Positions 5,404 through 20,884 of a stretch of DNA of 64,000 bases are shown here, piece after piece. A model generated the notes under the pieces. The model saw nothing but the letters and a program-made list of their open reading frames with translations. It ran no database searches and had not been told where the DNA came from. Source of the DNA: Chitinophagaceae bacterium (GTDB taxonomy: Bacteria; Bacteroidota; Bacteroidia; Chitinophagales; Chitinophagaceae); contig JAMLHK010000004.1 of NCBI GenBank assembly GCA_023957155.1, positions 1-64,000 of the forward strand, read 5' to 3'. Both the position numbers and the translations under genes were made by a program. The stretch's first letter is position 1. Every line of letters begins with the position of its first letter.

Positions 5404-5503
5404 TTCCGCACTAAAAATGAGGGTATTAGTATATGGATTACTGCTTTTTCTACCAATATTACTGATTGGCTGTGGCGTATGGTTATCCCCGTCGAAGAAT
5501 GTG

Positions 5504-5511
5504 TAAATTTG
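5504..5511 (+). promoter_or_regulatory. Candidate -7 box (TAAATTTG) of the AraC gene
   Basis: Exact match to TAnnTTTG, 20 bp before the chosen ATG at 5532, which would give a very short leader. No convincing -33 TTG at the usual distance. Confidence 0.4.
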
Positions 5512-5531
5512 TATTACAAAACACAGGAGCG

Positions 5532-6425: not shown

Positions 6426-6472
6426 GTTTGTTTCAATAATAATATATTTTTTGTCTTTTTTTTCTTCCCCCG

Positions 6473-6631
6473 CCTGTCTCAATTGACAAGATCATAAAAA
6501 CGTGTGGCGCTTGGAAACCTCAAAAGTTTGACCGCATTTATACAGGCACCCTCAATAATCCGGTCTTAAAAGATATTTATGCTCCTGTTGATGATTTCGT
6601 AGTTAACGGTGGGATAAAAATTAGGGTCTAA
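6473..6631 (+). pseudogene. 3' remnant of an unrecognised gene
   Basis: A frame without a start codon runs from about 6473 to a TAA at 6629-6631 and reads protein-like: SIDKIIKTCGAWKPQKF, then RIYTGTLNNPVLKDIYAP and DDFVVNGGIKIRV. It is preceded by a T/C-rich run (6449-6470) that no gene explains. The composition looks like the C-terminus of a real protein cut at its 5' side. I do not recognise the family. A chance open frame of 52 codons cannot be excluded. Confidence 0.35.
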
Positions 6632-6687
6632 AAACTCATGTTTATGACCTTAAGGAAATAACATTTTTTGCCGGGCTTTTGTGCTTT

Positions 6688-6957
6688 ATGGCCTTTTATG
6701 TTTATATTATTGAAAGCATGGAGGATGCCACCTATTATAAAGGATCCACCGAAAACCCGCTTATCCGGCTTCAGCAACATAATGCCGGACTTAGCCATTA
6801 TACCCGCCCGAAACGACCATGGAGATTGATATATGTAGAAGAACTTCCTACCAAAACCGAGATGCTTATCCGGGAAAAGAAATTGAAGAGGGGTAATACG
6901 ACCTACTTTCAGAATCTGATCAATAGCAATAAAAATATTATTCACACCTTTTTGTAG
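6688..6957 (+). CDS. GIY-YIG nuclease domain protein (copy A, intact)
   Basis: 89 aa single-domain endonuclease of the YhbQ/UPF0213-like group. Start at ATG 6688 (MAFYVYIIES), matching the copy at 11996; an upstream TTG at 6679 is unlikely. Motifs: YVYII ... YYKG (the GIY-YIG core), the catalytic Arg in RLQQHN, and the metal-binding Glu in PTKTEMLIREKKLK. The family cuts DNA; many such solo domains have no assigned role. The bases before the ATG (CCGGGCTTTTG then TTTATGGCC) match those before the copy at 11996, so both derive from one unit. A tRNA-Asp-like 3' half follows only 3 bp after the stop. Confidence 0.9.
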   Translation: MAFYVYIIESMEDATYYKGSTENPLIRLQQHNAGLSHYTRPKRPWRLIYVEELPTKTEMLIREKKLKRGNTTYFQNLINSNKNIIHTFL

Positions 6958-6960
6958 CTG

Positions 6961-7013
6961 CCCTGTCACGGTCTCTACGGATGTAGAGACGGGTTCGAGG
7001 CCGTCCGGTCCGC
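6961..7013 (+). pseudogene. tRNA-Asp 3'-half relic with an inserted hairpin
   Basis: The sequence opens with CCCTGTCACGG, the anticodon loop pattern of tRNA-Asp(GUC), and ends with GGGTTCGAG and CCGTCCGGTCCGC, matching a T-arm, a CCGGTCC acceptor strand and discriminator G. Between them the anticodon-stem/variable segment is replaced by a perfect 8-bp hairpin, GTCTCTAC (6971-6978) / GTAGAGAC (6983-6990). No 5' half is present and the T-loop has one base too many, so it is not a working tRNA. Confidence 0.55.
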
Positions 7014-7015
7014 TT

Positions 7016-7047
7016 AAAAGGATTATCAGTACTGATGATCCTTTTTT
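7016..7047 (+). terminator. Strong intrinsic terminator-like hairpin
   Basis: A 13-bp stem (7016-7028 with 7033-7045, one G-T pair) closes a 4-base loop and ends in a run of T. It directly follows the tRNA-Asp-like relic, as a terminator would follow a tRNA gene. The A-rich left arm would also let it work on the minus strand. Confidence 0.75.
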
Positions 7048-7415
7048 AGTTTTACACATCTTTACTTTTAAGAGATTGATTTTCATTTTCTTATAACACA
7101 TTTTCAACGCAGTAGGATTTATCTTTATATCAGCTTAACAATTTAAAAAAGTAAACCTGAATTTTGTCAAGTCCAGCTCAATATTAGAATCAAAAGAAAG
7201 GAACTGTTTCCAATCTTTTGCCGCCCGCAACCGGAGGCTATGAAAAGATGAACAATGAATTATTCAGGTTGAAAAGTTTAGAAAGGTGCCAATTATCTTT
7301 GTGAGCCTCAATTTTATTTTTTATGAAGATTTTGTTGATTACCTCACCTTCAATCACGTCCATCTTCATCGAAAAGAAAAGCTAACAGGAATACGCTTAA
7401 AAACATTGAAAAGCT
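7048..7415. other. Non-coding stretch upstream of ECF cassette 1
   Basis: No convincing gene. It contains an exact TAnnTTTG match (TATCTTTG, 7294-7301) with a TTG at 7269-7271, a plausible housekeeping promoter. A 20-codon frame starting with ATG at 7324 (MKILLITSPS...) follows it, too short to call. The next element is the ECF-type promoter at 7416. Confidence 0.4.
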
Positions 7416-7445
7416 GAAACTTTTGCATCCTATCGTCAGTCTAAT
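7416..7445 (+). promoter_or_regulatory. Predicted ECF-sigma promoter of cassette 1
   Basis: GAAAC (7416-7420), 17-bp spacer, AGTCTAAT (7438-7445), 15 bp before the ATG at 7461. The same layout, G(A/T)AAC-N17-xxTCTA(A/C)T, occurs before cassette 2 (12400) and before the barrel gene (8926). It differs from the TAnnTTTG housekeeping type and has the GAAC/TCTA look of ECF promoters. Three matching sites beside two ECF genes make self-regulation likely. Confidence 0.6.
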
Positions 7446-7460
7446 ACAAGAAAAAAGCGC

Positions 7461-7796
7461 ATGGATACTCTAATAACATTTCTAACATTAGTAGCAATTT
7501 TTGTAATTATATCGGTTTTGGTGATCCATTATTTCAATTTTAGACTTAAAAAATACATTATAGACTCCAATCGTATCAACGATAAGGAACTGGCTGAATT
7601 ATTAAAGCCCTCTCAATTTCACTCGGAATTTCTTAAGTGGGGTCTGATTCTCCTTTTTGCAGGAGCAGGCTTGATTGTTATTGATATTTTTGAAATAGAT
7701 ATTGCTGATACCCCGTTACCTTACGGCATTGAAACCATGTTTATAGCCGCCGGATTCCTTCTTTATTACCTGATGGTTCGGAACAAAAAGAGTTAG
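7461..7796 (+). CDS. DUF6249-like small membrane protein (cassette 1)
   Basis: 111 aa. One transmembrane helix at about 5-24 (TLITFLTLVAIFVIISVLV), a charged cytoplasmic segment with the landmark KELAELLKP, then two more helices at about 56-75 and 88-105. This helix, charged loop, two-helix plan is that of the DUF6249 family, of unknown function, commonly found next to ECF sigma genes in Bacteroidota. First gene of the cassette, 66 bp before the sigma gene. The protein at 12449 has the same plan. It may take part in signal sensing with the sigma/anti-sigma pair, which is inference. Confidence 0.75.
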   Translation: MDTLITFLTLVAIFVIISVLVIHYFNFRLKKYIIDSNRINDKELAELLKPSQFHSEFLKWGLILLFAGAGLIVIDIFEIDIADTPLPYGIETMFIAAGFLLYYLMVRNKKS

Positions 7797-7862
7797 TCAA
7801 ACCATGCGTAAAAAACTGCATTTGCCCGCTAAATTTCTTTGCGACCTCAGCCTACCTGAAAT

Positions 7863-8405
7863 ATGAATGATCAAGAAGTCATAGAAAAGGTTTTAAAAGG
7901 TGACTTGAAAGCCTTTTCGATTATCGTTGATCGCTATGAGAGATTGGTTTTTTCGATTGTTTCCTTGCTTCTTAAGAAGCGGGAAGATATAGAAGATGTT
8001 TCGCAAGAGGTATTTATAAGAGTTTATAGGGGGATGTCGGGGTTTAATTTTAATTCAAAATTGTCGACCTGGATAGCAAAGATCGCCTATCGGAGTTCTC
8101 TGAGCCATTTAAAGAAATTTCATCGAAAATCAAATACTCTGGATGATATCGTTGAAGAAAATAATCCGGTTATGGAGAATCCCGACTCGTTGCTTGAAAT
8201 CAAAGATTCCCGTTCGCACATACATAAATTGATAAATGGGTTGAGAGAGGAATATAAAACGGCGGTAATGCTATTTCATATACATGGCTTCTCGTACGTC
8301 GAAATTGAGAAAATAACAGGATGGCCGGAGGGGACAGTCAAAACTTATCTTTATAGAGCGCGAAAGATACTGAAAGAACAAATGATTGCACATCTAAAAT
8401 CATAA
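7863..8405 (+). CDS. ECF-type sigma-70 factor (cassette 1)
   Basis: 180 aa, normal ECF length. Sigma2: LKGDLKAFSIIVDRYERLVFSIV with the -10-recognition part EDIEDVSQEVFIRVYRG and KLSTWIAKIAYRSSL. Sigma4: a C-terminal helix-turn-helix FSYVEIEKITGWPEGTVKTYLYRARKIL. Start ATG 7863 (MNDQEVIEK) parallels MNDDAIDLE in the second cassette. The stop lies 4 bp before the next gene, a putative anti-sigma protein. Predicted targets are its own cassette (promoter 7416) and the barrel gene (promoter 8926). Confidence 0.95.
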   Translation: MNDQEVIEKVLKGDLKAFSIIVDRYERLVFSIVSLLLKKREDIEDVSQEVFIRVYRGMSGFNFNSKLSTWIAKIAYRSSLSHLKKFHRKSNTLDDIVEENNPVMENPDSLLEIKDSRSHIHKLINGLREEYKTAVMLFHIHGFSYVEIEKITGWPEGTVKTYLYRARKILKEQMIAHLKS

Positions 8406-8409
8406 CCTA

Positions 8410-8829
8410 ATGACACAACTTACAGATGAAGATATTCAGCGCATGCTCGATAGTGAAAACTCTCACGGCCTGCCAAATGACGATGGATCCGACTCTAGGT
8501 TAGCTGAATACAAAAGCCTTTACGGAATATTGAATTCTATTCAGACCGAGCCGGCCCCCAGTCAATTGAAATATAATGTTATTAAAAAGCTCAAAATAGA
8601 GAGGAGCCGGAGATTGTGGGGCAATCGGCTTCTTATTGCAATGTGTTTTTGTGTAGGTCTCTCTTTTTTTTATTTCGCTATGAAGCAAATAAACCTAGTT
8701 TCCCTAAATGCGATCATTCCATATTTCTGGAACTTTAAATGGCTTTTTATTTTCGGGATTGGGGCACTAATATTGATTAATTATTTTGATTTTATACTGA
8801 TAAAAAAGCAAATGGGTGTGACTGTCTGA
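8410..8829 (+). CDS. Putative anti-sigma membrane protein (cassette 1)
   Basis: 139 aa. The N-terminal ~75 residues are cytoplasmic and begin LTDEDIQRML, then LAEYKSLYGIL and EPAPSQLKYNVIKKL, the usual shape of a short anti-sigma domain. Two transmembrane helices follow at about 77-95 and 110-130. It is translationally close to the sigma gene (4 bp) and is the natural candidate for its inhibitor. No ZAS-type His/Cys zinc motif is visible. Family not recognised by name; role from context. Confidence 0.7.
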   Translation: MTQLTDEDIQRMLDSENSHGLPNDDGSDSRLAEYKSLYGILNSIQTEPAPSQLKYNVIKKLKIERSRRLWGNRLLIAMCFCVGLSFFYFAMKQINLVSLNAIIPYFWNFKWLFIFGIGALILINYFDFILIKKQMGVTV

Positions 8830-8925
8830 CTTTTCAGATAAAAGTATCAATCCAATCCAATTCATCTATTTGCGTTCTGCACTTCGCCTGTGTTAATTTA
8901 GCTGAAAAAGTCTTTTTCAAAAATT

Positions 8926-8955
8926 GAAACTTTCGACCACGTGGCTTGGTCTACT
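8926..8955 (+). promoter_or_regulatory. Predicted ECF-sigma promoter of the barrel gene
   Basis: GAAAC (8926-8930), exactly 17 bp, GGTCTACT (8948-8955). It matches the patterns before the two ECF cassettes except for one A-to-C change in the -10 part. The gene starts at 9032, giving a leader of about 70 bases. This would place the barrel protein in the regulon of the ECF factor just upstream. Confidence 0.5.
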
Positions 8956-9031
8956 AGATACCCTGAGTATTATTGAAGGGGCAATAACATCTAAAACAAC
9001 ACTATCAGAACCTCATTGCTAAAACTTAACT

Positions 9032-11473
9032 ATGAAAATAAGATCATTAATAATTGTTCTAACCTGTGCTCTTGTCAATTTACAGGCTTATTCTCAGGAT
9101 ACTACTAACTATCACTATGTTAAAGGAGTTATCAAAGATTCTTTGTCTGGTGAAACTCAAGGTCTGATGACTGTTACTCTACGCGATAGTAGTAACAAAC
9201 TTATTAAAACCATCATCAACAGTGAAAACGGTGATTTTTTTCTGGATAGCATAGCATTGGGAGAGTACAAGATAACCATATTGAGTGTGAGTTTTTCTCC
9301 GAAAATTATTAAACTTAACGTGAGCAAAAATTCTCCAACCGAAATAGATTTAGGCTCGATATTAACTACTAGGGTAATAAAGGAGCTTACTCTTGTGGAG
9401 ATAGTCGCAGACAAACCTCTTGTTAAGCAGGATATCGATAAAATTTCATATAATCTGCAGGCTGACGCTGATAGCAAGTTCAGCAGTGTTCTGGACATTA
9501 TGAAAAAAGTGCCCTATTTGTCTTTGGATGGTGAGGGGAACATTCTTCTTAAAGGAAGCCCAAGCTACAAAATACTTATCGATGGGAAGCCCTCTAGCCT
9601 TGTCGAAAGAAACCCCAAAGAGGTATTAAAGTCCACACCGGCGTCTATGATCAAAAGTATTGAGGTTATGACAAACCCGCCCGCTAAATATGACAGCGAG
9701 GGTCTATCAGGTATAATTAACATTATTACAAATCGGCAACTGCGTGACGGCTATCTCGGATCGCTGAATATTAAACATCAGGGGCCTACCGAAGGTCCAC
9801 AGATTGGTACATCGTTGTCCGTAAAAATGGGAAAAATAGGAATGTCCTTATTGGGCGGAGTAAGCCATTCGAGGTATCCTCAAACAGAAAACAGCCTGGA
9901 GAGAAACGCCTTTGATATGTCAAGTTATCTGCAGCAGATTGGACTTACTGAATCAAAGGGATACCAAGGCTATCTGGGTTTGGAAATAAGTATGCAAGTA
10001 GATAGTATGAGCTTGATAAGTGGGTATTTTAATATAAATGGTGGCAAGACTAATAGAGAGTCCCAACAGATATCTTCATTTATTAAAAATAGTGAGATCG
10101 CTGAAGAATTCACTTTAGGAAACAATAATAAGTATAACGGAAACGGAATAGACGCCTCTATAAATTACCAATTGGGATTTAGAAAGAACACATCACGCCT
10201 TTTGACGATTTCGTATAAGTATTCTAACTACTCAATGTTCGATGAAGGACGAATACTATTCGAAGACAAGTATAACTATAACATGCCCGATTATATTCAA
10301 ACGAACGACAGAGGCGCTTCCGAACAAACCGCACAGGTGGATTACGGACAATTATTGGGGACGGTATATCTGGAAACTGGATTGAAAGGTATATTAAGAA
10401 AAAATATCAGCGATTTCAACAACTTAACCTATAATCAAACCAGCAATATGTTCGAGCCAGATCCTATCTTGAGCAATAAATTCGATAATGATCAGGATAT
10501 CCTGGCGGCATATATTTCGTATAAATACACTATCAACGGGTGGGGTTTTAAGGGGGGTGTCCGGGCGGAACAAACATACGTTACAGGCGATATGATTAAC
10601 AACGGGGCCTCGTTTAAATCGGAGTATTTCAATCTTTTACCCACCCTCGCTTTTACCAAAAAACTGAAAAACAAAAATATAGTTAGCTTGGGTATTGTGC
10701 AGAGAATTAAGCGACCGGGAATTCAACAACTAAATCCTTTTGTGGACAGAACAAATTCCAAAGTGGAGATAAGCGGAAATCCCGACCTGAAACCGGTAGT
10801 ACTCAATGCAATTCAAATTGGATATGGCATTACAAGGCGTGTAACGGTCTTAACAAGTGTGAGCTACAGCTTTTTCAATAAATTCATACAACAAGTGTCT
10901 TTTCTTAATGAGGCGACTGGGATAACAAAAACGCAATATGAAAATACTGGAAGGGGCAAAGGCATTGGATTTGATCTGAATATTATCATTCCTGCTTCGG
11001 AGAAAGTGAATTTCAGTTTAAACAGCAATGTGTCTTACGCATGGATAATTGGAAGAAACGAAAATAGCGAGTTAAAAAATGAAGGTATGACCTATTATTT
11101 TTCGCCGTCAGTAAGCTATGCTATGGGGAGAGGGTGGAGAGCGAGTGCATCAGCGAACGTGTTGAGCAGAAGCCTTTCGCTTCAAACGCAGTCGAGCGCA
11201 TTGACAAGTTCTTCATTTAATATTTCTAAAAATCTATTAAATGATAAGCTTACAATATCTGCGTCATTAAACAATCCGTTTAATAAGTTTAGAATGAACA
11301 GAAATATTACTTCGGACCCGCACTTCAATCAAGTTGTAACTAACAGGAATTATTTTTGGTCATACGGAATATCGGTAAATTATAATTTCGGACGTTTAAA
11401 AGAAGGAATTAAGAAGACAGGCAAGAGCATTAAAAACGACGATATATTTATTGAGAACAACGAAAGAAAATAA
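9032..11473 (+). CDS. Outer-membrane beta-barrel protein, TonB-receptor-like (OMP_b-brl family)
   Basis: 813 aa. Signal peptide (MKIRSLIIVLTCALVNLQAYSQ, cleavage near 22), then a carboxypeptidase-regulatory-like domain of about residues 25-110 (GVIKDSLSGETQGLMTVTL). A plug-like segment follows, with LDIMKKVPYLSLDGEGNILLKG, YKILIDGKP and MTNPPAKYDSEGLSGIINIIT. The rest is a large barrel of beta strands. This is the TonB-dependent-receptor relative that lacks a SusD partner, and none is seen here. It follows cassette 1 with its own ECF-type promoter. The cargo is unknown. Confidence 0.9.
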   Translation: MKIRSLIIVLTCALVNLQAYSQDTTNYHYVKGVIKDSLSGETQGLMTVTLRDSSNKLIKTIINSENGDFFLDSIALGEYKITILSVSFSPKIIKLNVSKNSPTEIDLGSILTTRVIKELTLVEIVADKPLVKQDIDKISYNLQADADSKFSSVLDIMKKVPYLSLDGEGNILLKGSPSYKILIDGKPSSLVERNPKEVLKSTPASMIKSIEVMTNPPAKYDSEGLSGIINIITNRQLRDGYLGSLNIKHQGPTEGPQIGTSLSVKMGKIGMSLLGGVSHSRYPQTENSLERNAFDMSSYLQQIGLTESKGYQGYLGLEISMQVDSMSLISGYFNINGGKTNRESQQISSFIKNSEIAEEFTLGNNNKYNGNGIDASINYQLGFRKNTSRLLTISYKYSNYSMFDEGRILFEDKYNYNMPDYIQTNDRGASEQTAQVDYGQLLGTVYLETGLKGILRKNISDFNNLTYNQTSNMFEPDPILSNKFDNDQDILAAYISYKYTINGWGFKGGVRAEQTYVTGDMINNGASFKSEYFNLLPTLAFTKKLKNKNIVSLGIVQRIKRPGIQQLNPFVDRTNSKVEISGNPDLKPVVLNAIQIGYGITRRVTVLTSVSYSFFNKFIQQVSFLNEATGITKTQYENTGRGKGIGFDLNIIIPASEKVNFSLNSNVSYAWIIGRNENSELKNEGMTYYFSPSVSYAMGRGWRASASANVLSRSLSLQTQSSALTSSSFNISKNLLNDKLTISASLNNPFNKFRMNRNITSDPHFNQVVTNRNYFWSYGISVNYNFGRLKEGIKKTGKSIKNDDIFIENNERK

Positions 11474-11927
11474 TACTACTGCATCGCCGCCAGAAGGATA
11501 TTGATCTTACGGTTTATATAAGAAACTATAGCAAACATCTCCCCAAGAGTCTTGTAGCTAAGCCGGGACGTTTGGATAATATTGAACCGAAGAGCCTGTG
11601 TAATCAGGAAAAGAGATTGGGTTTTCAAACTCAAAAGCTCAGGGGTATTAAAGCGCTTACAGGTAATATTATTGGACTGGGACTTAAGAATATGATAATG
11701 ACAGGGTTGCTAGCCAAGTTAAGGAAAGGTTTTATTGAGAAATTTCTACATTCTTGTCAAATCATAAATCTTGTTATTTTGGCTACGGATAATTAACACT
11801 TATCATTATTATATTTTTAAAAGATAGTCAACGTTAAGCGATGTAAGGACTCGTGAAATGCGTTAAAATTAGCTCTTTAGTAGACCCCAATGTAGACCTA
11901 AAAAAATAATCAACTGATCTTCACATA
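11474..11927. other. Region without a convincing gene between the two cassettes
   Basis: A plus-strand frame runs from the end of the barrel gene to a TAA near 11796, with only a TTG (11572) as possible start. It reads DIDLTVYIRNYSKHLPKS, then GFQTQKLRGIKALTG and FLHSCQIINLVILATDN. It is protein-like in places but I recognise no family and see no ribosome site, so it may be a decayed gene. The rest is AT-rich and unassigned up to the tRNA-like relic at 11928. Confidence 0.3.
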
Positions 11928-11962
11928 GGACCGGGCAGAATTAACTATCCCGTCCGGTCCGC
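11928..11962 (+). pseudogene. Collapsed tRNA-Asp relic (acceptor stem ends only)
   Basis: GGACCGG (11928-11934) and CCGGTCC (11954-11960) are exact complements and match the two strands of a tRNA-Asp acceptor stem, followed by discriminator-like G and C. The preceding CCCGT matches the T-arm end also seen at 6999-7003. Only about 13 unrelated bases replace the D, anticodon and T arms, so this is an internally deleted tRNA. It is followed at once by a terminator-like hairpin and the GIY-YIG pseudogene. Confidence 0.5.
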
Positions 11963-11988
11963 AAAAGCCTGGTTTACCCGGGGCTTTT
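11963..11988 (+). terminator. Terminator-like hairpin before GIY-YIG copy B
   Basis: AAAAGCC (11963-11969) pairs with GGCTTTT (11982-11988). The right arm GGCTTTTG is also present before the intact GIY-YIG gene at 6676-6681. It probably began as the terminator of the tRNA gene whose end precedes it. Confidence 0.55.
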
Positions 11989-11995
11989 GAATTTT

Positions 11996-12268
11996 ATGGC
12001 TTACTATGTTTACATCACCCGGTCGTTGAAAGACAGCAGCTTCTACAAAGGGTTTTCTGAAAACCTCTTACAGAGACTTGCGCAACATAATGATAAGGCA
12101 TCGCGATACACTGCGGCCAAAGTCCCCTGGCAATTGGTTTATATAGAGCTTTGAGCCAGTAAGACTGTCGCCTTACAACGCGAAAAGGCGCTCAAGAAAT
12201 ATTCCCACCCGCAGATTGAACAGTTGATTGCATCACAGAAAAATATTGTAAAACAGTTTCTGCAATAA
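11996..12268 (+). pseudogene. GIY-YIG nuclease gene with in-frame stop (copy B)
   Basis: ATG 11996 opens MAYYVYITRSLKDSSFYKG, then RLAQHN and PWQLVYIEL, all aligned with copy A. A TGA at 12152-12154 then interrupts the frame. Reading continues in the same frame with ASKTVALQREKALKKY and KNIVKQFLQ to TAA 12266-12268, so only one nonsense codon breaks an otherwise full-length 90-codon gene. The catalytic Tyr and Arg side is kept before the stop; the segment that normally holds the metal-binding Glu lies after it. Downstream, CTCTGTCAC at 12277-12285 resembles the tRNA-Asp anticodon loop found after copy A. Confidence 0.8.
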
Positions 12269-12399
12269 TGGGCTGCTCTGTCACAATCTGCAACCAGCCG
12301 AACATAATCAAACCGGGGATAGCAATTGCAACCTCCAGGCGAAAATACCCGCAACTCAAGTGAAGACGACATGAGCTACGTTGATTTTTTTAACCTGTT

Positions 12400-12429
12400 G
12401 TAACCTTTTTCATCTTTTTATTATCTAAT
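12400..12429 (+). promoter_or_regulatory. Predicted ECF-sigma promoter of cassette 2
   Basis: GTAAC (12400-12404), exactly 17 bp, TATCTAAT (12422-12429), 19 bp before ATG 12449. Same spacing and near-identical boxes as the promoter of cassette 1. Confidence 0.6.
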
Positions 12430-12448
12430 CTAATATAGAAATATAACA

Positions 12449-12775
12449 ATGCTAGTAGCTATTACTATTTTATTAATTAGCTTAGGAAGCTTCATCTTCC
12501 TCGGGTGGCTTTTTTCGCACAAAGCAGAACACGAAGAGAAAATGAAACTAATAGAAAAAGGGATAAAACCAGATATGATAAGAAATGATGGGAGTCGCGT
12601 ACTCTGGAAAAAGATGGGGATAATAGCAGTGGGATTAGGCTGCGGTTTATTTATTATATCAATATTGGTTTGGGTCAATCCCAAAATAGTTAAGGTGAAC
12701 TCAATGCCTCTTGCCATACTTATTGTCTGTTGCGGAATCTCATTAATAGTTTCAAATAAAGAAAAAAGACCATAA
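12449..12775 (+). CDS. DUF6249-like small membrane protein (cassette 2)
   Basis: 108 aa. One N-terminal helix (about 3-22, ISLGSFIFLGWLF), a charged loop AEHEEKMKLIEKGIKP, then two helices at about 55-75 and 85-101. The KLIEKGIKPD segment is a familiar DUF6249 landmark. Its architecture equals that of 7461..7796 but the sequence is clearly diverged. The stop is one base before the GTG of the sigma gene, so the two are co-translated. Likely accessory to the sigma system; function unknown for the family. Confidence 0.78.
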   Translation: MLVAITILLISLGSFIFLGWLFSHKAEHEEKMKLIEKGIKPDMIRNDGSRVLWKKMGIIAVGLGCGLFIISILVWVNPKIVKVNSMPLAILIVCCGISLIVSNKEKRP

Positions 12776-12776
12776 A

Positions 12777-13343
12777 GTGAATGACGATGCTATTGATTTG
12801 GAGCATGTGAATAAGGTTCGCAGCGGGGATTTGGCATCTTTCCAACCTCTCATCACGAAATACAAAGACATTTTATTTACCTATACTTCGACAATATTAA
12901 CAGACACACAACTTGCAGAGGAAACGGTCCAGGATGCATTTGTAAATGCCTTTAAATATTTAAAAACATTCCAGGGAAAATCAAGCTTTAAAACCTGGTT
13001 AATTAAAATTACAATTAACGAGGCAAATAAGAAAAGAAAGCAAATAAAGCAGCATATTATTCTAAAAGACAAGTTTAACGAAAATTGCATCAGCAACGAG
13101 GAAAGCCAAGAGGTAAGCAATGATGTTGAAATTATTAAATATGCCTTAAAATTAATTGACAGAGATAAAAGCTTGGCTCTACGATTATTTTATCTTGACG
13201 AATATTCCATCAACGAAATAGCCAAATTGACGAGTTGGTCTATCCCCAAAACAAAGACCACCTTACACAGAGCTAAAAAAGAAATAATAAAAATCGTAAA
13301 AGAGATTCAATCTAAAAATCGAAGTAATGGATCAAAAAGATAA
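12777..13343 (+). CDS. ECF-type sigma-70 factor (cassette 2)
   Basis: 188 aa starting with GTG 12777, one base after the previous stop. Sigma2: VRSGDLASFQPLITKYKDILF and AEETVQDAFVNAFKYL, then KSSFKTWLIKITINEANKK. Sigma4: YSINEIAKLTSWSIPKTKTTLHRAKKEI. Its domain plan equals that of the factor at 7863, with a longer linker. The end overlaps the next gene by 17 bp. Predicted to read the G(A/T)AAC-N17-TCTAAT promoter before its own cassette; cross-talk with the other factor is possible. Confidence 0.95.
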   Translation: MNDDAIDLEHVNKVRSGDLASFQPLITKYKDILFTYTSTILTDTQLAEETVQDAFVNAFKYLKTFQGKSSFKTWLIKITINEANKKRKQIKQHIILKDKFNENCISNEESQEVSNDVEIIKYALKLIDRDKSLALRLFYLDEYSINEIAKLTSWSIPKTKTTLHRAKKEIIKIVKEIQSKNRSNGSKR

Positions 13344-13641
13344 AGATATATTAAACCTCATCAGAAATTCTAAGCTTGTGCTTGATAACACTGATTTCGA
13401 ACTAAGGTGTATGCAGGTAGTTAATGAACAAATTCAGCTTACAAGAAAACCGTCTGCTTATTATAAAATATCCAGCAGGTTTTATTTAGCCGGCACCGTG
13501 GTTTGCTTTGCGCTAATTTGTCTTAGTTTAATTGAAATACCAGATAATATAATGAATTTAATTTTTTTGCAGTCTCTTGCCATTGGAACCTTTTGCTGTT
13601 TAATCCTGCAGATCAAACAATTATTCGCCTATCACCGGTAG
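13327..13641 (+). CDS. Putative anti-sigma membrane protein (cassette 2)
   Basis: 104 aa with two transmembrane helices (about 50-67 and 77-95) and a 45-residue cytoplasmic N-terminus, DKDILNLIRNSKLVLDN then ELRCMQVVNEQI. It overlaps the sigma gene by 17 bp, so expression is tightly coupled, as for sigma/anti-sigma pairs. Shorter than its counterpart at 8410..8829 and only the plan is shared. The role is inferred from position and topology. Confidence 0.65.
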   Translation: MDQKDKDILNLIRNSKLVLDNTDFELRCMQVVNEQIQLTRKPSAYYKISSRFYLAGTVVCFALICLSLIEIPDNIMNLIFLQSLAIGTFCCLILQIKQLFAYHR

Positions 13642-13674
13642 ATTATTAATTTTTCAAACTAAAAATATTTTAAA

Positions 13675-14766
13675 ATGAAAAGAGTTATTTTCATAGCTAC
13701 CTTTTATTGTCTTTCGTGTACTGCCGGCATAAATGGTCAGGAATTTAATATCAGGGGAAAGATTAATTATCCTGATACATTAATGATATTATTCGGCTCC
13801 AAACATCAGTCCGATACTTTAATCAGCCCGGAGGGGGAATTTCATTTTACGAGAGAAATAAATTACCCGGAATTACTGACCATTGCAGCCGTAGATATTA
13901 AGAATACAAAAACATACAACCTTCGCAGATTTTTTGCAGATGATGGGACTGCACATCTCGAAACAGATTTTAATAGCCTTGGAGACTGTAGTATTCAAAT
14001 GACAAATACAAAATATAATACGATCTATGAAGACTTTAGGGAGAGGTTTGATCCACTTGTAAGTATAGCAAGAAAAGTAATAGATACCTCTTATTCAAAA
14101 GATCTAACCAATGAAGGCAAAGGGCTTTGCAATAAATTATATGATTTTATAAATGAAGTTGAAGGACATGTTATTGAGAAGTTTATAAGTAATAATTCCG
14201 ACAATATAGTTGGCGCTTATATTTTTAATAATTACTTCAACACACAGGCGAATGTTGATAAAGCGCAAGTTCTGTACTCTGGTTTCTCACCGGAATTGTT
14301 AAAGTGCCCTTATCTGAAGGAAGTTAAATCAAAGCTCGAAGCTGCTCAAAAAATCACAGTTGGATTAGCAGCGCCTGCTATAACTGCAACCGCGTTAGAT
14401 AGCAAGCGCATTGAATTCGGGAAAGAGCAAAATAAATATACTGTTATTGACTTTTGGGGAACCTGGTGTGCCCCCTGTTTAAAAGGATTTAGCAGAATGA
14501 AAAAGTATTATCAGATACATAAAGAAAAAATAAATTTTGTTGGAGTTGCTTATAATGATAACAGGAGCAACGTGAAATCGTTTATTGAAACACACAAAAT
14601 AGTTTGGCCCCAAATAATAAATAATGAACAGAATACGAATTTGGAAAAGGCTTTTAACATCTATGCTGCCCCCACAAAAATAATTATAGACAAACAGGGG
14701 AGGGTTTTAAAAATATTTGTTGGTGAAACAGACGATTTCTATACGTATATAGACAATCTAAAATAA
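13675..14766 (+). CDS. TlpA-like thioredoxin-fold protein with N-terminal DUF4369-like domain
   Basis: 363 aa with a signal peptide (MKRVIFIATFYCLSCTAGI, cleavage near NGQ), so periplasmic. The N-terminal region (about 25-120) resembles the DUF4369 beta domain (FNIRGKINYPDTLMILFG). A helical middle is followed by a thioredoxin domain from about residue 235 with the redox site WCAPC (Trp264 to Cys268) in IDFWGTWCAPCLKGF and the cis-Pro region YAAPTKIIID. It probably acts as a disulfide reductase. It ends cassette 2, 33 bp after the anti-sigma gene, in the place where cassette 1 has the barrel gene. Confidence 0.9.
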   Translation: MKRVIFIATFYCLSCTAGINGQEFNIRGKINYPDTLMILFGSKHQSDTLISPEGEFHFTREINYPELLTIAAVDIKNTKTYNLRRFFADDGTAHLETDFNSLGDCSIQMTNTKYNTIYEDFRERFDPLVSIARKVIDTSYSKDLTNEGKGLCNKLYDFINEVEGHVIEKFISNNSDNIVGAYIFNNYFNTQANVDKAQVLYSGFSPELLKCPYLKEVKSKLEAAQKITVGLAAPAITATALDSKRIEFGKEQNKYTVIDFWGTWCAPCLKGFSRMKKYYQIHKEKINFVGVAYNDNRSNVKSFIETHKIVWPQIINNEQNTNLEKAFNIYAAPTKIIIDKQGRVLKIFVGETDDFYTYIDNLK

Positions 14767-14778
14767 TATAGATTAGGA

Positions 14779-14846
14779 TATCACTGAAAGACAGCAGCTT
14801 CTACAAAGGGGGATTCTGAATATCCTTTACAGAAACTTACGCAACG
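14779..14846 (+). pseudogene. GIY-YIG gene fragment (copy C)
   Basis: About 65 bp match the middle of copy B: after TGAAAGACAGCAGCTTCTAC the sequence continues ACAAAGGG and, after small changes, resumes CTGAA...CCTTTACAGA and CGCAACG. This covers codons for LKDSSFYKG and the RLAQ segment, with an indel between them. No start or end of the gene remains. It lies 13 bp after the TlpA-like gene. Confidence 0.6.
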
Positions 14847-14979
14847 CCTTTACCAGTAAAAAGTAATAAACGTCCGTCTTTGGCTAAGGTTTTATTATAG
14901 TCTAAGAAAATGAGATTTCATTGACGGAAGGCAAAAGCCGATCAGAAAAGTATAATTACTAACTTTATAAATAAAAACC

Positions 14980-15741
14980 ATGAAAAAAATATTGCTTCCC
15001 CTGTTTCTGTTGATTTATTGTTGTAAGATACAGGCACAGAAGATTTTTGAGAAAGATTATACTAAACCCGAGGCCACGGAAATAGCGGAGCCTAAACCTA
15101 AAATCGTTGCTCCGGGCATAGGTAATGCCCCACCTTCCGATGCTATAATTCTTTTCAATGGCAGGAATCTTGATAATTGGGTAATGTCTAAGGATGGCAG
15201 CCCTTGCGTGTGGAAGTTAAAAGATAATGTTATGACCGTTAGTCTTGAAGCCGGTGATATTCAGACCAAACAGAAATTCGGCGATTGCCAGCTGCATCTT
15301 GAATTTAGGATCCCGGCCAATGTTAAAAACACTACTAATCCCAATAATGCCGGCAACAGCGGTGTATTTATACAGGAACGTTACGAAGTACAAATATTCG
15401 ATTCCTATAATAACGAAACACCACTCTATGCCAATGGACAAATGGGGAGTATTTATAAGCAGGTCATCCCTTTAGCAAATGCATCCAGCAAGCCGGGCGA
15501 CTGGAATACCTTTGATATTTATTATACAGCTCCCAGGTTCCGCTTTAATGGTACTGTTGAAAAGCCAGCCACGATCACTTTAGTACATAACGGAGTATTA
15601 ACACTGAACCATTTTGAAATTCAGGGAACGACACAATATATCGGTATTCCACGCTACGAGCCTCATGATAAAGCAGCGATCAAATTACAAAGTCATGGTA
15701 GTGAAGTTAGTTTCCGCAATATCTGGATCAGAGCACTGTAG
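14980..15741 (+). CDS. DUF1080 (3-keto-disaccharide hydrolase family) exported protein
   Basis: 253 aa with a signal peptide (MKKILLPLFLLIYCC, cleavage near QAQ). The body is a concanavalin-like DUF1080 domain from about residue 50, with landmarks IILFNGRNLDNW, DCQLHLEFRIP, GNSGVFIQERYEVQI and the end VSFRNIWIRAL. Members of this family hydrolyse 3-keto glycosides or bind sugars in the periplasm. It converges on the FAD-oxidoreductase/phosphotriesterase-like pair. FAD enzymes can make 3-keto sugars, so a functional link is possible but the pair here is not clearly of that type. Confidence 0.88.
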   Translation: MKKILLPLFLLIYCCKIQAQKIFEKDYTKPEATEIAEPKPKIVAPGIGNAPPSDAIILFNGRNLDNWVMSKDGSPCVWKLKDNVMTVSLEAGDIQTKQKFGDCQLHLEFRIPANVKNTTNPNNAGNSGVFIQERYEVQIFDSYNNETPLYANGQMGSIYKQVIPLANASSKPGDWNTFDIYYTAPRFRFNGTVEKPATITLVHNGVLTLNHFEIQGTTQYIGIPRYEPHDKAAIKLQSHGSEVSFRNIWIRAL

Positions 15742-15777
15742 CGGAATCTTCATTTTCTGAGAGCGCATTTCAATTAA

Positions 15778-15800
15778 GGTTTTTTAAACCTGCCTTTTTT
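15778..15800. terminator. Weak hairpin between convergent genes
   Basis: GGTTT (15778-15782) and AAACC (15786-15790) pair around TTT, followed by a T-run. The stem is short, so this is a weak terminator for the DUF1080 gene. Confidence 0.35.
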
Positions 15801-15807
15801 AATTGTA

Positions 15808-16767
15808 TTAAAAGAAGGAATAAAGTTGTGCCGGATTCTTAAAAAAGATATTTTCATAATACTGAGCTAACCCCATCTTTTGAAGATCATCTTTAAAGGT
15901 AGTTAACAAAAAATTCAATCCGGGCCTGCCGCCATACGATTGCCAATAGGTAGTTTTGGCGGCATCCATGCCCATAGTTATCTGGCCGGAAAAAGCAGGC
16001 AGCAAAGCCTCCAGAAGTTTGTACGTCCAGTTTTCTTCTTCTTTCCACCGAAAAGCACTGTCATATTCTACCTTTACCCCTGTTTCCAGCAATGCCCGGT
16101 TGTATCCAATATCCCGGAAGCGATCAACATGTGAAATTACCACATGCTCCAAATGAGCCCCAAGCTTCTCAAACATATTCACCTGGTCAATGGCATGTTT
16201 ACCAAAATTACTATGGGTTAAAATAGGGACACCGGTTTCCAGATGAGTGTTCACTACCGCATGAAATATTTTCTCCTGGTGGGCAGTGATCTTCTCATCA
16301 CCGGTAGCCAGCTTAATCATGCCGGCCTTATGAGATGTCCTGCTTATATATGGCCCGTTATAGTCATTGGAATCAATCCCGCACATCACATCATCAATAA
16401 ACAGCTGTGTTAGTTGTTCCTCGGTATAAGAATATCGCCAATGATTGGGTAAATAATATTTTTCGAGATGAATTCCGGTAGGTGCTATAATATGTACGCC
16501 TGTCCTGCGGGAGATTTCAGCCAGTTTGAGAACATTACGGCCACAATCAGCAGGCATGGTGTCAACCATCGTCCGTCCTCCTGCTTTGTAAAAGCTTTTT
16601 AATTCCTCCGAAACTTTATCTACGTCATTCAAAAGAAAAAAAGGGCTTTGCAGGGTAGGGTAACTTTCTTCAATAATAATATGTTCATGAGAATAGGTTA
16701 ATCCCATTTCAGCAGGAGAAATATCTCCTAAAACTGTGCGAACAAACGGGATCCTGGCTGATTGCAT
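15808..16767 (-). CDS. Phosphotriesterase-family metal-dependent hydrolase
   Basis: 319 aa, no signal peptide. TIM-barrel amidohydrolase of the phosphotriesterase-related group. Metal ligands are visible: H27-x-H29 in TYSHEH, the Lys to be carboxylated in AGMIKLATG, His in ILTHSNFG and in VVISHVDR, and Asp in TMGMDAAK. The family includes lactonases and organophosphate hydrolases; the natural substrate is often a lactone or phosphoester. It follows the FAD-oxidoreductase gene by 11 bp, so one transcript is likely. Confidence 0.9.
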   Translation of the reverse strand: MQSARIPFVRTVLGDISPAEMGLTYSHEHIIIEESYPTLQSPFFLLNDVDKVSEELKSFYKAGGRTMVDTMPADCGRNVLKLAEISRRTGVHIIAPTGIHLEKYYLPNHWRYSYTEEQLTQLFIDDVMCGIDSNDYNGPYISRTSHKAGMIKLATGDEKITAHQEKIFHAVVNTHLETGVPILTHSNFGKHAIDQVNMFEKLGAHLEHVVISHVDRFRDIGYNRALLETGVKVEYDSAFRWKEEENWTYKLLEALLPAFSGQITMGMDAAKTTYWQSYGGRPGLNFLLTTFKDDLQKMGLAQYYENIFFKNPAQLYSFF

Positions 16768-16778
16768 ATTTACATCAT

Positions 16779-18161
16779 TTATTGCTTTCTGAAATTATTT
16801 CTCCAGCCATTTCTGCTTGTATCGGCCAGTATAGGAGGAACCTCCAGAAGCACTCCCGTTTGTTGCAACTTTGATTGCAATTTAGAAACATCTAAGGTAT
16901 GAGCCGACATATCTTCATCTAATGATAATGTAGCAGCTAATCCCGCGGCTTGTCCCATAGACATAGTTTGCGCCATAGAGCGGCATGAGGCGTGGGCATC
17001 ATGCGTAGCAGAAAAACAACGTCCTGCCACCCAGGCTAACTCGCTCCCTTTGGGGACGATCGTTCCATAGGGTACTCCATACACTCCATTATCAGGAATA
17101 TATTGCCAGAAAGTTTCATTTTCTCCATTCTTGGCCTTTCGATGATCTTCAATAGGCGCCCCGCAAAGAAAAATGCTATCCGGAGGAATGGATCCGGACA
17201 GACAATCGTCCTTATTGAGACGATATTCCCCATACACACGCCGGGTTTCCCGAACCCCGATCTGATGCGAAAGACCGATAATCTTTGATTCTTCATACCC
17301 CGGCACTTCCTTTCTAAAGAAATCTTCAAAAACAAATGCCTGCCTTCGCCCCTCTATCTCCGCCAGGGTAAGCTCCTCCACATTCAATGCATTCAAATCG
17401 CCTACTTTTACGGCAACAGTAGATATACATCCTTTCTGGCACATCTCATGAGCCGACCCTTCTTTCCTGGGTAGCGCATAGCTTCCTGTTTCAAAAGCAG
17501 CTTTCATTTTTTCATTCATCATATTCTTACTGCCGGCCTGCCTGAATTTATCTAAGTTAACATTGCTCATCCTGAAAGTAGTGGTCATGCTTTGTGCAGG
17601 CTCTGACTCACCGGCAATTTCATAAGAGAATCCTCCTAAATGACAAAAATCAGCATCACCGGAAGCATCAATAACTCTTTTGGCCCTGATTTTAAAAAAG
17701 CCACTTTTATTCCAGAAAACACAGGTCTGCTTTTCTGCTCCTTCCTTTACCACGTCAACCAGCGTTGTATGCAATAAAAAACGGACACCGGCTTCACTGA
17801 TCTTCCGATCCCACACATACTTTAAACGCTCCGGATTATAATTTACACCTGTTCCCGCCCCGTAGGTATTGGGACGTAAAAAAATATCTCCTGTCTGATC
17901 CAGTTCATTTACAATCGTATCCGCCAGACCAGCCACAATTTTTTTAGGTGCTTCCCCCGGTGTGAAAAATCCATAAAAGGTATCGAGCATCTGCGTAGAC
18001 GTACCACCCGGAAAACCATACCGCTCCACCAACATTACCTCATATTTCCAGCTTTGCCTTGCAGCCAATGCGGCCAAACAACCCGCAGAGCCTGCACCTA
18101 TTACCAGGATGTCCGTTTCAGAGCGTAAGGGCACCTGATGATGATTAATAAATTCTATCAT
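16779..18161 (-). CDS. FAD-dependent oxidoreductase
   Basis: 460 aa. The N-terminus binds FAD through the dinucleotide motif VIGAGSAGCLAA (about residues 20-31), with the FAD-family end VERYGFPGGTSTQ; later markers are RVIDASGDADFCHLGG and VAGRCFSATHDAHASCR, typical of the FAD_oxidored family that covers bacterial glycoside- and steroid-related dehydrogenases. No signal peptide. First gene of a two-gene operon with the phosphotriesterase-like enzyme. The two together suggest oxidation followed by lactone or ester opening of one compound, which is inference. Confidence 0.85.
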   Translation of the reverse strand: MIEFINHHQVPLRSETDILVIGAGSAGCLAALAARQSWKYEVMLVERYGFPGGTSTQMLDTFYGFFTPGEAPKKIVAGLADTIVNELDQTGDIFLRPNTYGAGTGVNYNPERLKYVWDRKISEAGVRFLLHTTLVDVVKEGAEKQTCVFWNKSGFFKIRAKRVIDASGDADFCHLGGFSYEIAGESEPAQSMTTTFRMSNVNLDKFRQAGSKNMMNEKMKAAFETGSYALPRKEGSAHEMCQKGCISTVAVKVGDLNALNVEELTLAEIEGRRQAFVFEDFFRKEVPGYEESKIIGLSHQIGVRETRRVYGEYRLNKDDCLSGSIPPDSIFLCGAPIEDHRKAKNGENETFWQYIPDNGVYGVPYGTIVPKGSELAWVAGRCFSATHDAHASCRSMAQTMSMGQAAGLAATLSLDEDMSAHTLDVSKLQSKLQQTGVLLEVPPILADTSRNGWRNNFRKQ

Positions 18162-18300
18162 TGTATGAATAAGTATAAATGAATAACAGGCCGTTCTTCG
18201 TACAGATTTATATAATTATACCACGTGGTACCGGGTGGTCTGGTCAAAGTTACATAAGATTCTTTCAGAAAATCCGTGCTACCGGGAGTACCCGGATTTG

Positions 18301-18340
18301 CCCGGAGCTCTTCTATTTATGACTTACCACGTTAACCCTA
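18301..18340 (+). pseudogene. GIY-YIG element start relic (copy D)
   Basis: CCCGGAGCTCTTC followed by ATG at 18319 and ACTTACCACGTTAACC lines up with CCCGGGGCTTTTG-ATG-GCTTACTATGTTTAC of copy B, allowing a few transitions and one gap. AAATCCG (18270-18276) and CGGATTT (18293-18299) just upstream form a hairpin in the place of the terminator of copy B. The frame is lost after about six codons. Similarity is short, so chance is not excluded. Confidence 0.4.
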
Positions 18341-18394
18341 TTTCAATCACACTATAATTACAGCTTTATACAATCACGGCAAAACATCATAACC

Positions 18395-20884
18395 TCACAA
18401 CGCATCTACGTCAGCAACCATTACCATGCTTCTGAATTTTTGAATTTGATGCAGCACTACTACCTGTTCTTTTATCGCCGCTTTACATTTATTGATAAAG
18501 CCAGTGTCCTTGGGAATTTTAAACAGTATTTCCATAAGGTATTGATTGCGTATTCTGCTAACCGGAGGCTCTGCCGGGCCGACCATGTATTTACCATATT
18601 CTTTGTGCAATGCATCGGTAAAAAGGCGGGCAGCATCCACCACCCGTTCTTTTAATTTATGCCGGAAGGTAATGCAAATGGTGCGAGAAAAAGGAGGATA
18701 AAAGAATCGCTCCCGTGCTTCTGCCTCGTATTTAAAAAAGGAGATGTAATCATGCTGCTGTACAAAATGAAGTACAGGGTGTTTGGTATTAGTTACCTGT
18801 ATCATAACTTTTCCTCTCTCGTCCTTTCTACCTGCCCGTCCGCTTACCTGTTCCATTAACTGAAATGCCCGTTCATTAACCCGAAAATCGGCAAAGCTTA
18901 AGATACTGTCTGCATCCAGTATACCCACCAGGCTCACATGCTCAAAATCTAAACCTTTTACTACCATTTGAGTACCAACGAGGATATCAATACGCTTTTG
19001 TTCAAATAACTGAATAAGATTATCATGCGCATGTTTGCCCCTGACGCTATCTATATCCATGCGGGCAATTTTTGCCTCTGGAAAGGATTCTTCCAGGAAC
19101 TCTTCAATTTTCTCTGTCCCGAAATTACGCTGAATAAAATCATGGCTGCCACATGCAGCACAGATTGTAACATTAGGATAATTAGTTCCGCAATAATGAC
19201 AGATCAGTTTATTGCTGAGTTTATGGTAGGTAAGGCTCACATCACAGTGCTTACACTGCGGCACCCAGCCACAAACCGCACAAATCTGATACGGCGAATA
19301 ACCTCTCCGGTTTTGAAATAAGATAACCTGTCTATCCTTCTGTAATTCCTGTTCTATAGCTTCCTTTAATTGTGGTGAAAGCATAATCTTCGACTTCCCT
19401 TTTCTCACAATTTGTTTGGTATCTATGATTTCAATTGCCGGAAGACGGACACCTCCGTATCTTTCATTCAATACTACTAAGCCATATTTGCCCTGTAATG
19501 CATTAAAATAACTTTCAAAGGAAGGTGTTGCACTGCCGAGTAAAACTTTAGCATTAAACAGTGAAGCATAAAAGATAGCGCTGTCTCTGGCATTATACCT
19601 GGGTGCAGGATCATATTGCTTAAATGATGTATCATGCTCTTCATCTACTACAATCAAACCGAGATGGGTAAATGGAAGAAAAAGAGCAGACCTGGCACCC
19701 AGTACGATCTTCAGCTCTCCTGTTTTGACCTTATTCCATATTTCAATACGCTCATTCTGACTAAACTTACTATGGTAAATACCAATGTATCCGCCAAAAT
19801 GTTTTTGCAGTCGGCGAATGATCTGAGAGGTCAGCGCTATTTCAGGCAACAGATACAGCACCTGCTTTCCCTGGTGGATGTACTGCTCCATCAGCTTTAT
19901 ATATACCTGGGTTTTACCGCTGGAAGTGATACCGTGCAACAAACAAACCGGCTTTTCTTTAAAGGATAGGTTTATACTCTCCAGTGCTTCCTGCTGAGCG
20001 GGAGTTAAACTAAAATCAACATTGATGTGAAGTGGAAGGTAGCTGATCCTGTCAACGGCACGCTTTTCAAGCCATAAGATATTTTTCTCTACCAAGCCTT
20101 TCAACTGTGCATCAGATGCACCTGATTTCTTTAATAAAGCAGATTTGGTGACCTCTCCTTCCGTTTTTATCAGGTGAAGATAGCTCAGCAGGAGTTCTAA
20201 TTGTTTGGGAGCCCTTCCCCAATTGTTCATCAGATCAGCCAGCACTTCTTCATCTGCATATTTTGAATTAAGAATAACATAGGTTTCCTTCTTTGCGCTA
20301 TAAGAATCCTTAAGTGCTTCCCATACAAAACAAACCTTGTGTTCAATCAGCCTTTTAATAACAGGATATACATGTGAAGAGTCAAGTAAGAGTTGTACCT
20401 CGTTAAGCCGTAATTCTTTTTTTATATGGAGTGCCTCCGCCACAAGGTATTCTTCGTTATTCAATGTTGAAAAGTCATCGCCATACTCTTCATTATAAAT
20501 GAGAATGGTTTCGCTGCTTAGCTTAAAATATGACGGCAGCGCGGCAGCCATTACTTCCCCCTCGCTGCACATATAATATTGAGCTATCCATTCCCATAAT
20601 TTCAGCTGCTGCTCAAAAACAATAGGTTCCTTATCCAGCACATTCAGTATATCCTTTGGCTCAAATGCCTGGGGCTTTCGATTATGCAACCGCCTGATAA
20701 TACCCCCATACTTCTTGTTTTTCCCCAGCACTACTTCCACCCGGCATCCCACTTTAGCATTATCTCTAACATGAGGAGGTATTTGCCAGGTATAGTTTTT
20801 AGGAATGGCCAAAGGAATGATGACTTCGGCGAAAAGAGGCGCAGGTAAAGTCAATTCATTTTGTTCTAAGAAAGGATCCGTCAT
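18395..20884 (-). CDS. priA: Primosomal protein N' (PriA helicase)
   Basis: 829 aa, full length. Restarts stalled replication forks as a 3'-5' DNA helicase. Markers in order: N-terminal DNA-binding part (residues 20-120, ITKN-like start PLAIPKNYTWQIPP); Walker A LHGITSSGKTQVY; Walker B LIVVDEEHD; motif PRYNARDSA; the zinc-binding insert with CAVCGWVPQC, CDVSL, CHYCGTNYPN and CAACG (eight Cys); then late helicase motifs LVGTQMVVKGLDFEHV and QVSGRAGRKDERG. Stand-alone gene. Cytoplasmic. Confidence 0.97.
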   Translation of the reverse strand: MTDPFLEQNELTLPAPLFAEVIIPLAIPKNYTWQIPPHVRDNAKVGCRVEVVLGKNKKYGGIIRRLHNRKPQAFEPKDILNVLDKEPIVFEQQLKLWEWIAQYYMCSEGEVMAAALPSYFKLSSETILIYNEEYGDDFSTLNNEEYLVAEALHIKKELRLNEVQLLLDSSHVYPVIKRLIEHKVCFVWEALKDSYSAKKETYVILNSKYADEEVLADLMNNWGRAPKQLELLLSYLHLIKTEGEVTKSALLKKSGASDAQLKGLVEKNILWLEKRAVDRISYLPLHINVDFSLTPAQQEALESINLSFKEKPVCLLHGITSSGKTQVYIKLMEQYIHQGKQVLYLLPEIALTSQIIRRLQKHFGGYIGIYHSKFSQNERIEIWNKVKTGELKIVLGARSALFLPFTHLGLIVVDEEHDTSFKQYDPAPRYNARDSAIFYASLFNAKVLLGSATPSFESYFNALQGKYGLVVLNERYGGVRLPAIEIIDTKQIVRKGKSKIMLSPQLKEAIEQELQKDRQVILFQNRRGYSPYQICAVCGWVPQCKHCDVSLTYHKLSNKLICHYCGTNYPNVTICAACGSHDFIQRNFGTEKIEEFLEESFPEAKIARMDIDSVRGKHAHDNLIQLFEQKRIDILVGTQMVVKGLDFEHVSLVGILDADSILSFADFRVNERAFQLMEQVSGRAGRKDERGKVMIQVTNTKHPVLHFVQQHDYISFFKYEAEARERFFYPPFSRTICITFRHKLKERVVDAARLFTDALHKEYGKYMVGPAEPPVSRIRNQYLMEILFKIPKDTGFINKCKAAIKEQVVVLHQIQKFRSMVMVADVDAL

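Follow-up and report, generated by a model that had tools for sequence, protein, structure and literature searches.

Why should small nuclease genes and broken pieces of a transfer RNA (tRNA) gene lie side by side at several places on one bacterial contig? The question is raised by a 64,000-nucleotide (nt) stretch of DNA from a Chitinophagaceae bacterium (GenBank assembly GCA_023957155.1, contig JAMLHK010000004.1, positions 1 to 64,000; hereafter referred to as the window), which carries four traces of GIY-YIG nuclease genes, named A to D, together with pieces of tRNA-Asp. An earlier note on this DNA had suggested a unit composed of a tRNA 3′ part, a terminator and a GIY-YIG gene, spread by copying into or beside tRNA-Asp, as homing nucleases might. 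Here we follow these genes from the window into related genomes and across the phylum, and regard it as on balance probable that they are free-standing selfish nuclease genes living on tRNA genes.

All four traces are present on the plus strand. Copy A (6688..6957) is an intact gene of 89 amino acids (PF01541, E=1.7e-16), and its protein is 99% identical to that of a copy directly behind tRNA-Asp on contig C64 of genome G005. Copy B (11996..12268) is interrupted by one TGA codon (12152-12154) and is 49% identical to A. Fragment C (14781..14843) derives from a B-type gene (84% identity to the copy in genome G008, E=1.2e-11), and trace D (18292..18336) is a weak candidate for the start of a B-type unit, with a hairpin and the first codons. 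The alignment of D with the 5′ region of B has a local score of 42, which none of 2,000 mononucleotide shuffles reaches (maximum 37) and which is the highest of any 75-nt window on both strands, yet an unrelated window scores 39. The leaders upstream of the ATG codons of A and B share bases, as had been pointed out.

The flanks of A and B (all plus strand) hold the tRNA pieces. The leader of A (6669..6687) is the right half of a terminator-like hairpin seen after tRNA-Asp in G005. Behind A lies a tRNA-Asp relic (6958..7013; positions about 27 to 75), which is also found in G005; it retains tRNA positions 27-41 and 51-75 (numbering read on the G005 copy), and the hairpin TCTCTACGGATGTAGAGA (6972..6989) between them replaces positions 42-50. 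A terminator-like hairpin follows the relic (7014..7047), and the intact tRNA-Asp of genome G006 has the same flank behind it. Upstream of B, the remnant is confined to the tRNA-Asp 3′ end CCCGTCCGGTCCGC (11949..11962), which is joined to the gene by a terminator-like hairpin (11963..11989) near identical to that on contig C14 of the same genome. Behind B, GCTGCTCTGTCAC (12272..12284) is a relic trace whose position matches that of the relic behind the G008 copy.

An intact tRNA in the window was rejected, as ARAGORN finds none there; the tRNA-Asp of this genome is located at C14:121-195 on the minus strand. It matches the string on which the earlier note relied, and the sequences after A and before B are parts of it. 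A B-type GIY-YIG gene starts 34 nt after this tRNA, where the contig breaks off, and C14:1-135, running from the gene into the tRNA, is 94.8% identical to window positions 11948-12081, in and before copy B. The string TCCGGTCCG occurs at 34 sites in the genome, of which 30 were viewed (4 were not); three of these are tRNA-Asp-like (C14, after A and before B), and chance matches were rejected on this count. Neither of the two conditions under which the earlier note would have given up its proposal, namely that other copies lack tRNA-Asp sequence or that the genomic tRNA-Asp differs from the string, overturned it. Copies A and B, neither of which has an intact tRNA, have been displaced or have decayed.

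The unit of which C14 shows the first part, up to the contig end, is complete in four genomes of the same family (G005, G008, G010 and G014), in which an intact tRNA-Asp is followed by a terminator-like hairpin, a GIY-YIG gene and a tRNA-Asp part. The start of this far-side part falls between D loop and anticodon stem; the part extends to the 3′ end (in G008 it stops short of it), with an inner block replaced. G010 carries four such genes, some broken, spaced about 370 bp apart. The stretch 6669-7604, whose left end is the leader of A, is 96% identical to G005, and the other G005 matches of window 5400-19000 reach 67-78%; on the right, the match runs up to the end of the G005 contig. This points to a probable transfer of the A stretch in recent times. 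An origin of copy A from a phage or plasmid is unsupported: it has no relative in viral_contigs, and its 12 phage and 4 plasmid records are all below 60% identity. Hairpin-bearing tRNA-Asp pseudogenes also occur upstream of intact tRNA-Asp genes (L079 6925-7215, L076 7467-7541, L067 and L071), and in G008 two nearly full-length tRNA-Asp copies are separated by 117 bp and accompanied by a partial third one.

To see how far this linkage extends, we built a profile from ten copies, seeded mostly with tRNA-adjacent ones. At E<=1e-8 it had matches in 188 of 296 Bacteroidota genomes, and a single genome held up to 18 copies. Relatives also lie on two contigs of Sediminibacterium goheungense (L203 and L204). 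We surveyed 108 loci from the top of the profile-ranked list (29 and, roughly in list order, 80 more, less L118, a duplicate of L099; some contig-end loci and the end of the list were omitted). At 87 of them a tRNA lies on the same strand within 500 bp of the nuclease gene, and at 64 within 100 bp; the remaining 21 have no same-strand tRNA within the stretch, and none of the 108 has an opposite-strand tRNA within 500 bp. By our own estimate (about 45 tRNAs in 4 Mb), chance would place a same-strand tRNA within 500 bp at about 0.6% of loci. As most of the seeds were tRNA-adjacent copies, the figure of 87 of 108 cannot be taken as an unbiased rate. A seed-independent count with PF01541 in three single-contig genomes placed 14 of 21 small clusters by a tRNA, a transfer-messenger RNA (tmRNA) or a tRNA relic (G330, 5 of 11; G272, 6 of 6; G168, 3 of 4), with one 32-codon fragment in G168 not examined and frames of 575-614 codons set aside. 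Since the arrangement recurs in these single-contig genomes, an artefact of metagenome assembly was rejected as a general explanation. In the top-ranked results of a search of open-licence full texts, GIY-YIG units linked to tRNA genes on bacterial chromosomes are not described.

The units take two mirror-image forms. The tRNA lies upstream of the nuclease gene at 63 of the 87 loci (form I) and downstream at 24 (form II), and the far side carries a tRNA 3′ part in form I and a 5′ part in form II. A far-side piece of the locus's own tRNA (score >=13) was found at 72 of the 87 loci, against 4 for another isotype (one randomly drawn tRNA per locus) and 0 for shuffled tRNA; 13 of the 15 loci without such a piece are form I. 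The units measure about 300-450 bp, hold the nuclease gene as their sole gene and occur in tandem at 26 of the 108 loci, up to five in a row. Thirteen isotypes are represented among the 87 loci, and 15 in the tree described below, which includes loci of relatives. Two further arrays consist of tRNA parts with no nuclease gene between them: seven tRNA-Pro 3′ parts in G010 (L077 3287-4012) and four tRNA-Val parts in G168 (L267 1193-1625).

Both window proteins belong to the GIY-YIG superfamily, as copy A scores 60.7 bits against PF01541 (curated cut-off 22.6) and the first part of copy B 37.7. The domain spans positions 3-70 of the 89 in copy A, and the YxG motif, Arg27 and Glu63, which are of catalytic type, are invariant in ten aligned copies. 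The ten share no invariant Asn in their C-terminal part, the mark of the UvrC/I-TevI lineage, and a family analysis sets SLX1/UPF0213 apart by this missing catalytic residue (PMC1564403). The best matches in the Protein Data Bank (PDB) are 1zg2 (1e-19) and 1ywl, followed by SLX1 entries only; 7cq2 is also among the UPF0213/SLX1 structures. The protein accordingly belongs to the SLX1/UPF0213 lineage. Conversely, it is not of the I-TevI/Seg lineage, whose members have extra DNA-binding parts, because the domain fills positions 3-70 of its roughly 90 amino acids, the match to a homing endonuclease in PHROG has only E=0.04, and the nearest solved kin are SLX1-type. The ratio of non-synonymous to synonymous differences (pN/pS) is 0.09-0.51 in 19 of 20 compared pairs, with many pS values near saturation, and the pair of A and its G005 relative has no synonymous differences. 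Purifying selection thus maintains the protein, whereas the additional tRNA parts are broken.

The nuclease lineages follow the tRNA more than the host. In a tree that comprises 127 copies and rests on 86 columns, with weak support at 56 of its 123 inner branches and three loci omitted for hits below 45 bits, the isotype label changes 38 times over 107 labelled rows, against 68-78 in 100 shuffles and 66-78 in 100 within-family shuffles; the host family label on the same rows changes 57 times, against 66-79 when shuffled. Nuclease lineages bound to one target thus cross host families, although many forks of the tree are weak. The genome of the window itself has further nuclease copies 246 bp from tRNA-Ser and beside a tRNA-Asn relic. 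On both grounds, the unit is not special to tRNA-Asp: of the earlier proposal, the unit holds, the restriction to tRNA-Asp falls, and the protein is a putative homing nuclease. One lineage of ten rows has no tRNA; five of its loci have a Phage_integrase gene near the nuclease gene, and the others sugar-nucleotide or other genes. The five are L147, L185, L180, L119 and L154, and in L147 the integrase frame ends at the nuclease start. L166 and L167 lie amid sugar-nucleotide genes, and the L167 nuclease gene is flanked by a 24-bp near-identical direct repeat.

Empty and occupied sites can be compared at three RNA genes. Among 30 tRNA-Asp loci examined in relatives, four hold the nuclease gene (G000, where the contig end cuts the locus, G005, G008 and G010), G009 has a truncated nuclease start, and G011 has relics on both sides and no gene. 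G006 was rejected as a clean empty site for copy A: its left flank is 69% identical to that of G005 over 1.6 kb and its right flank 88% over 239 aligned positions, and this shared right flank of its tRNA-Asp runs into a gene whose product has Phage_integrase domains, so that G006 could have acquired an integrative element at a later time. The left flank of window 7013-11948, the interval that separates the tRNA piece behind A from the one ahead of B, matches the DNA leading to that integrase gene, and this interval may likewise be a decayed integrative element that used tRNA-Asp; three genes searched within it gave DUF6249, sigma factor and outer-membrane domains, with no integrase among these three. 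At a tRNA-Pro locus of one genus with the same left-hand gene, G321 and G258 are bare (tRNA, then terminator), G093 carries form I and G293 form II; in four further genomes the match stops just past the tRNA (match end only), and the right-hand gene is not conserved, lying elsewhere in other members. No Rfam intron family was found in window 6000-19000 or in 26 loci, mostly without a nearby tRNA, and no unit contains an integrase gene, although an integrase could act in trans.

The third comparison concerns the RNase P RNA gene, at which three nuclease copies form a clade (SH-aLRT 100). The nuclease gene lies inside the RNA gene in L152 (2494-3144, G101), L129 (G090) and L130 (G199). In L152, it occupies the loop of a 24-bp perfect stem that splits the 5′ end GGGAAAGCCGGGTAATCGC, which is able to pair with the RNase P RNA 3′ end, from GAGGAAAGTCCGGACACC; the stem-bearing site is probably helix P3. 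L129 and L130 have the same layout with a shorter stem. The genome G101 is a single contig in which one RNase P RNA exceeds the cut-off, and the congeners G074 and G105 have just a short stretch and no insert at that position. Occupied and empty alleles at one site are thus apparent at both the tRNA-Pro and the RNase P RNA loci. If the insert is as we describe it, it poses the question of how the ribozyme works, with coding sequence inserted or in two pieces. In addition, a GIY-YIG gene in L264 (1043-1813, G330) follows tmRNA at a distance of 157 nt, and inspection by eye shows a near-identical stretch of roughly 50 bp on either side of this gene.

The hairpins within the relics were considered as part of the unit. 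A perfect stem of at least 5 bp is present in 39 of 59 distinct relic inserts (200 shuffles: mean 6.4, maximum 15), 24 start with TCCC, and 69 of 106 TCCCG..CGGGA palindromes in the survey DNA (duplicate L118 excluded) lie within 6 nt of a relic piece. The same palindrome exceeds its reversed pattern genome-wide (G330, 95/5; G000, 191/40; G010, 243/56; G272, 39/13), and in 16 picked stretches of G330 (L207-L222) it is found between genes and also within long frames. Given this excess and the occurrence within genes in G330, the hairpins were dropped from the unit; they may be merely tolerated in dead tRNA copies.

How could such units arise? In the reading we favour, of selfish nuclease genes living on tRNA genes, the protein would work like a homing nuclease, with cleavage, specificity and direction of transfer presumed from the layout. 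The nuclease would break a tRNA gene, with the anticodon and variable arms or their vicinity as the probable site, and the break would be repaired from an allele having the nuclease gene between two tRNA stretches, so that the gene is copied in, leaving one tRNA whole and part of it duplicated. The layout flanks the gene with tRNA sequence, which a homing cassette requires, and leaves the host the one whole tRNA that it requires. The two forms, the binding of lineages to isotypes, movement between species, the arrays and the scattered scars would all follow from breakage and repair from an occupied allele, and repeated rounds would yield scattered decayed copies such as A to D. Whether the wider claim also holds, that SLX1-lineage nucleases have become in Bacteroidota a phylum-wide selfish class homing into structured RNA genes (at least 15 tRNA isotypes, with related copies beside tmRNA and within an RNase P RNA hairpin), leaving hairpin-broken scars and causing tRNA loci to amplify in tandem, is in our judgement evenly balanced.

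Several points weigh against the selfish-nuclease reading. Cleavage and transfer are both inferred; the intact tRNA should be a target too and would need protection. The protein has no separate DNA-binding domain that could account for target choice, and the family analysis describes SLX1/UPF0213 proteins as vertically inherited repair enzymes, apart from homing nucleases (PMC1564403). The linkage figures come from a list whose ranking profile took most of its seeds from tRNA-adjacent copies, and the seed-independent linkage is lower at 14 of 21 clusters, with just 5 of 11 in G330. The G006/G005 empty site is not clean, the tmRNA-associated copy in G330 has no tmRNA piece beyond it, and in G093 the terminator's beginning is present in both tRNA parts, which means that local duplication was involved there.

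The last of these points, together with the nuclease-free relic arrays of G010 and G168, could suggest that tRNA loci simply duplicate in tandem and decay unaided, carrying a harmless nuclease gene along. We consider this improbable, given the 13 isotypes in 87 loci, the strand bias, the isotype-bound lineages across families and the patchy presence of the gene, which is found in full at 4 of the 30 tRNA-Asp loci examined in relatives, with a contig end cutting off one of the four. Somewhat less improbable, though still unlikely, is that the units are satellites moved by tyrosine integrases in trans, with the nuclease as cargo and the tRNA as attachment site, integration restoring one tRNA and leaving a relic. 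tRNA genes are usual targets of integrases, tandem insertion is common at such sites, form I has the usual integrase geometry, and in G006 an integrase gene does follow tRNA-Asp. Duplication of a 5′ part, however, is unusual for integrases and is what form II presents at 24 of 87 loci; the copies within the RNase P RNA hairpin do not fit either, and the nuclease is both the only gene of the unit and under selection. Least probable of all, and in our view hardly to be expected, is a system acting at the RNA level, in which the nuclease attacks the tRNA and the hairpin-bearing relic is a transcribed decoy or antidote. The stems in 39 of 59 inserts, the joint repetition of nuclease and relic in arrays, and the structured RNA genes as targets would suit it; the genome-wide excess of the hairpins, several inside long protein frames in G330, would not, and the retained tRNA part varies among relics, which persist where the nuclease gene is gone or truncated.

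Beyond the units themselves, a DUF6249 gene and an extracytoplasmic function (ECF) sigma factor gene lie 3′ of both A (7461-8402) and B (12449-13340). A recent duplication of these genes was rejected, as the two sigma proteins share 27% identity and the alignment of the DUF6249 proteins reaches no better than E=0.05.

If the selfish-nuclease reading is true, a family described as housekeeping repair nucleases would be partly mobile and target-specific, shaping tRNA gene number and decay in a major phylum. tRNA pseudogenes and repeats at tRNA loci would be accounted for, and many natural nuclease–target pairs would be at hand to learn by what means a nuclease of 90 residues locates a tRNA gene.

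Several known systems resemble these units in part. Bacterial 23S rRNA intervening sequences have an open reading frame in a hairpin loop, and the RNase P RNA cases resemble them in holding a reading frame in the loop of a long stem within a structured RNA gene; here the gene encodes a GIY-YIG nuclease, the host is RNase P RNA, and the tRNA units lack this form. Rickettsia palindromic elements and REP-like palindromes are dispersed and also found within genes, as are the TCCCG..CGGGA hairpins of the relics. The units share with integrative elements and satellites of tRNA genes an insertion that leaves one whole tRNA and a duplicated part, but have no integrase in the unit and duplicate 3′ and 5′ parts at different loci. 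By sequence, the nearest solved structures are the UPF0213/SLX1 nucleases (PDB 1zg2, 1ywl and 7cq2), which likewise consist of the minimal domain without the Asn. In the family analysis, SLX1 acts in rDNA copy number and the family appears as vertical repair enzymes (PMC1564403); the genes described here, by contrast, occur in multiple copies, are patchy in their presence and are linked to tRNA genes. A further parallel is SegB of phages T4 and T6, described as a free-standing GIY-YIG homing endonuclease encoded beside tRNA genes, with tandem amplification of tRNA and nuclease that shows such a nuclease can drive the process (PMC13096335). The two systems share a GIY-YIG gene adjoining tRNA genes, tandem amplification and homology of the nuclease gene ends with the tRNA. 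The SegB gene is carried by phages, and it is a full-length tRNA that is amplified with it, whereas the units described here are chromosomal, of the SLX1/UPF0213 lineage, spread over many isotypes and accompanied by broken tRNA parts; if the selfish-nuclease reading is true, they would be a chromosomal counterpart of phage SegB.

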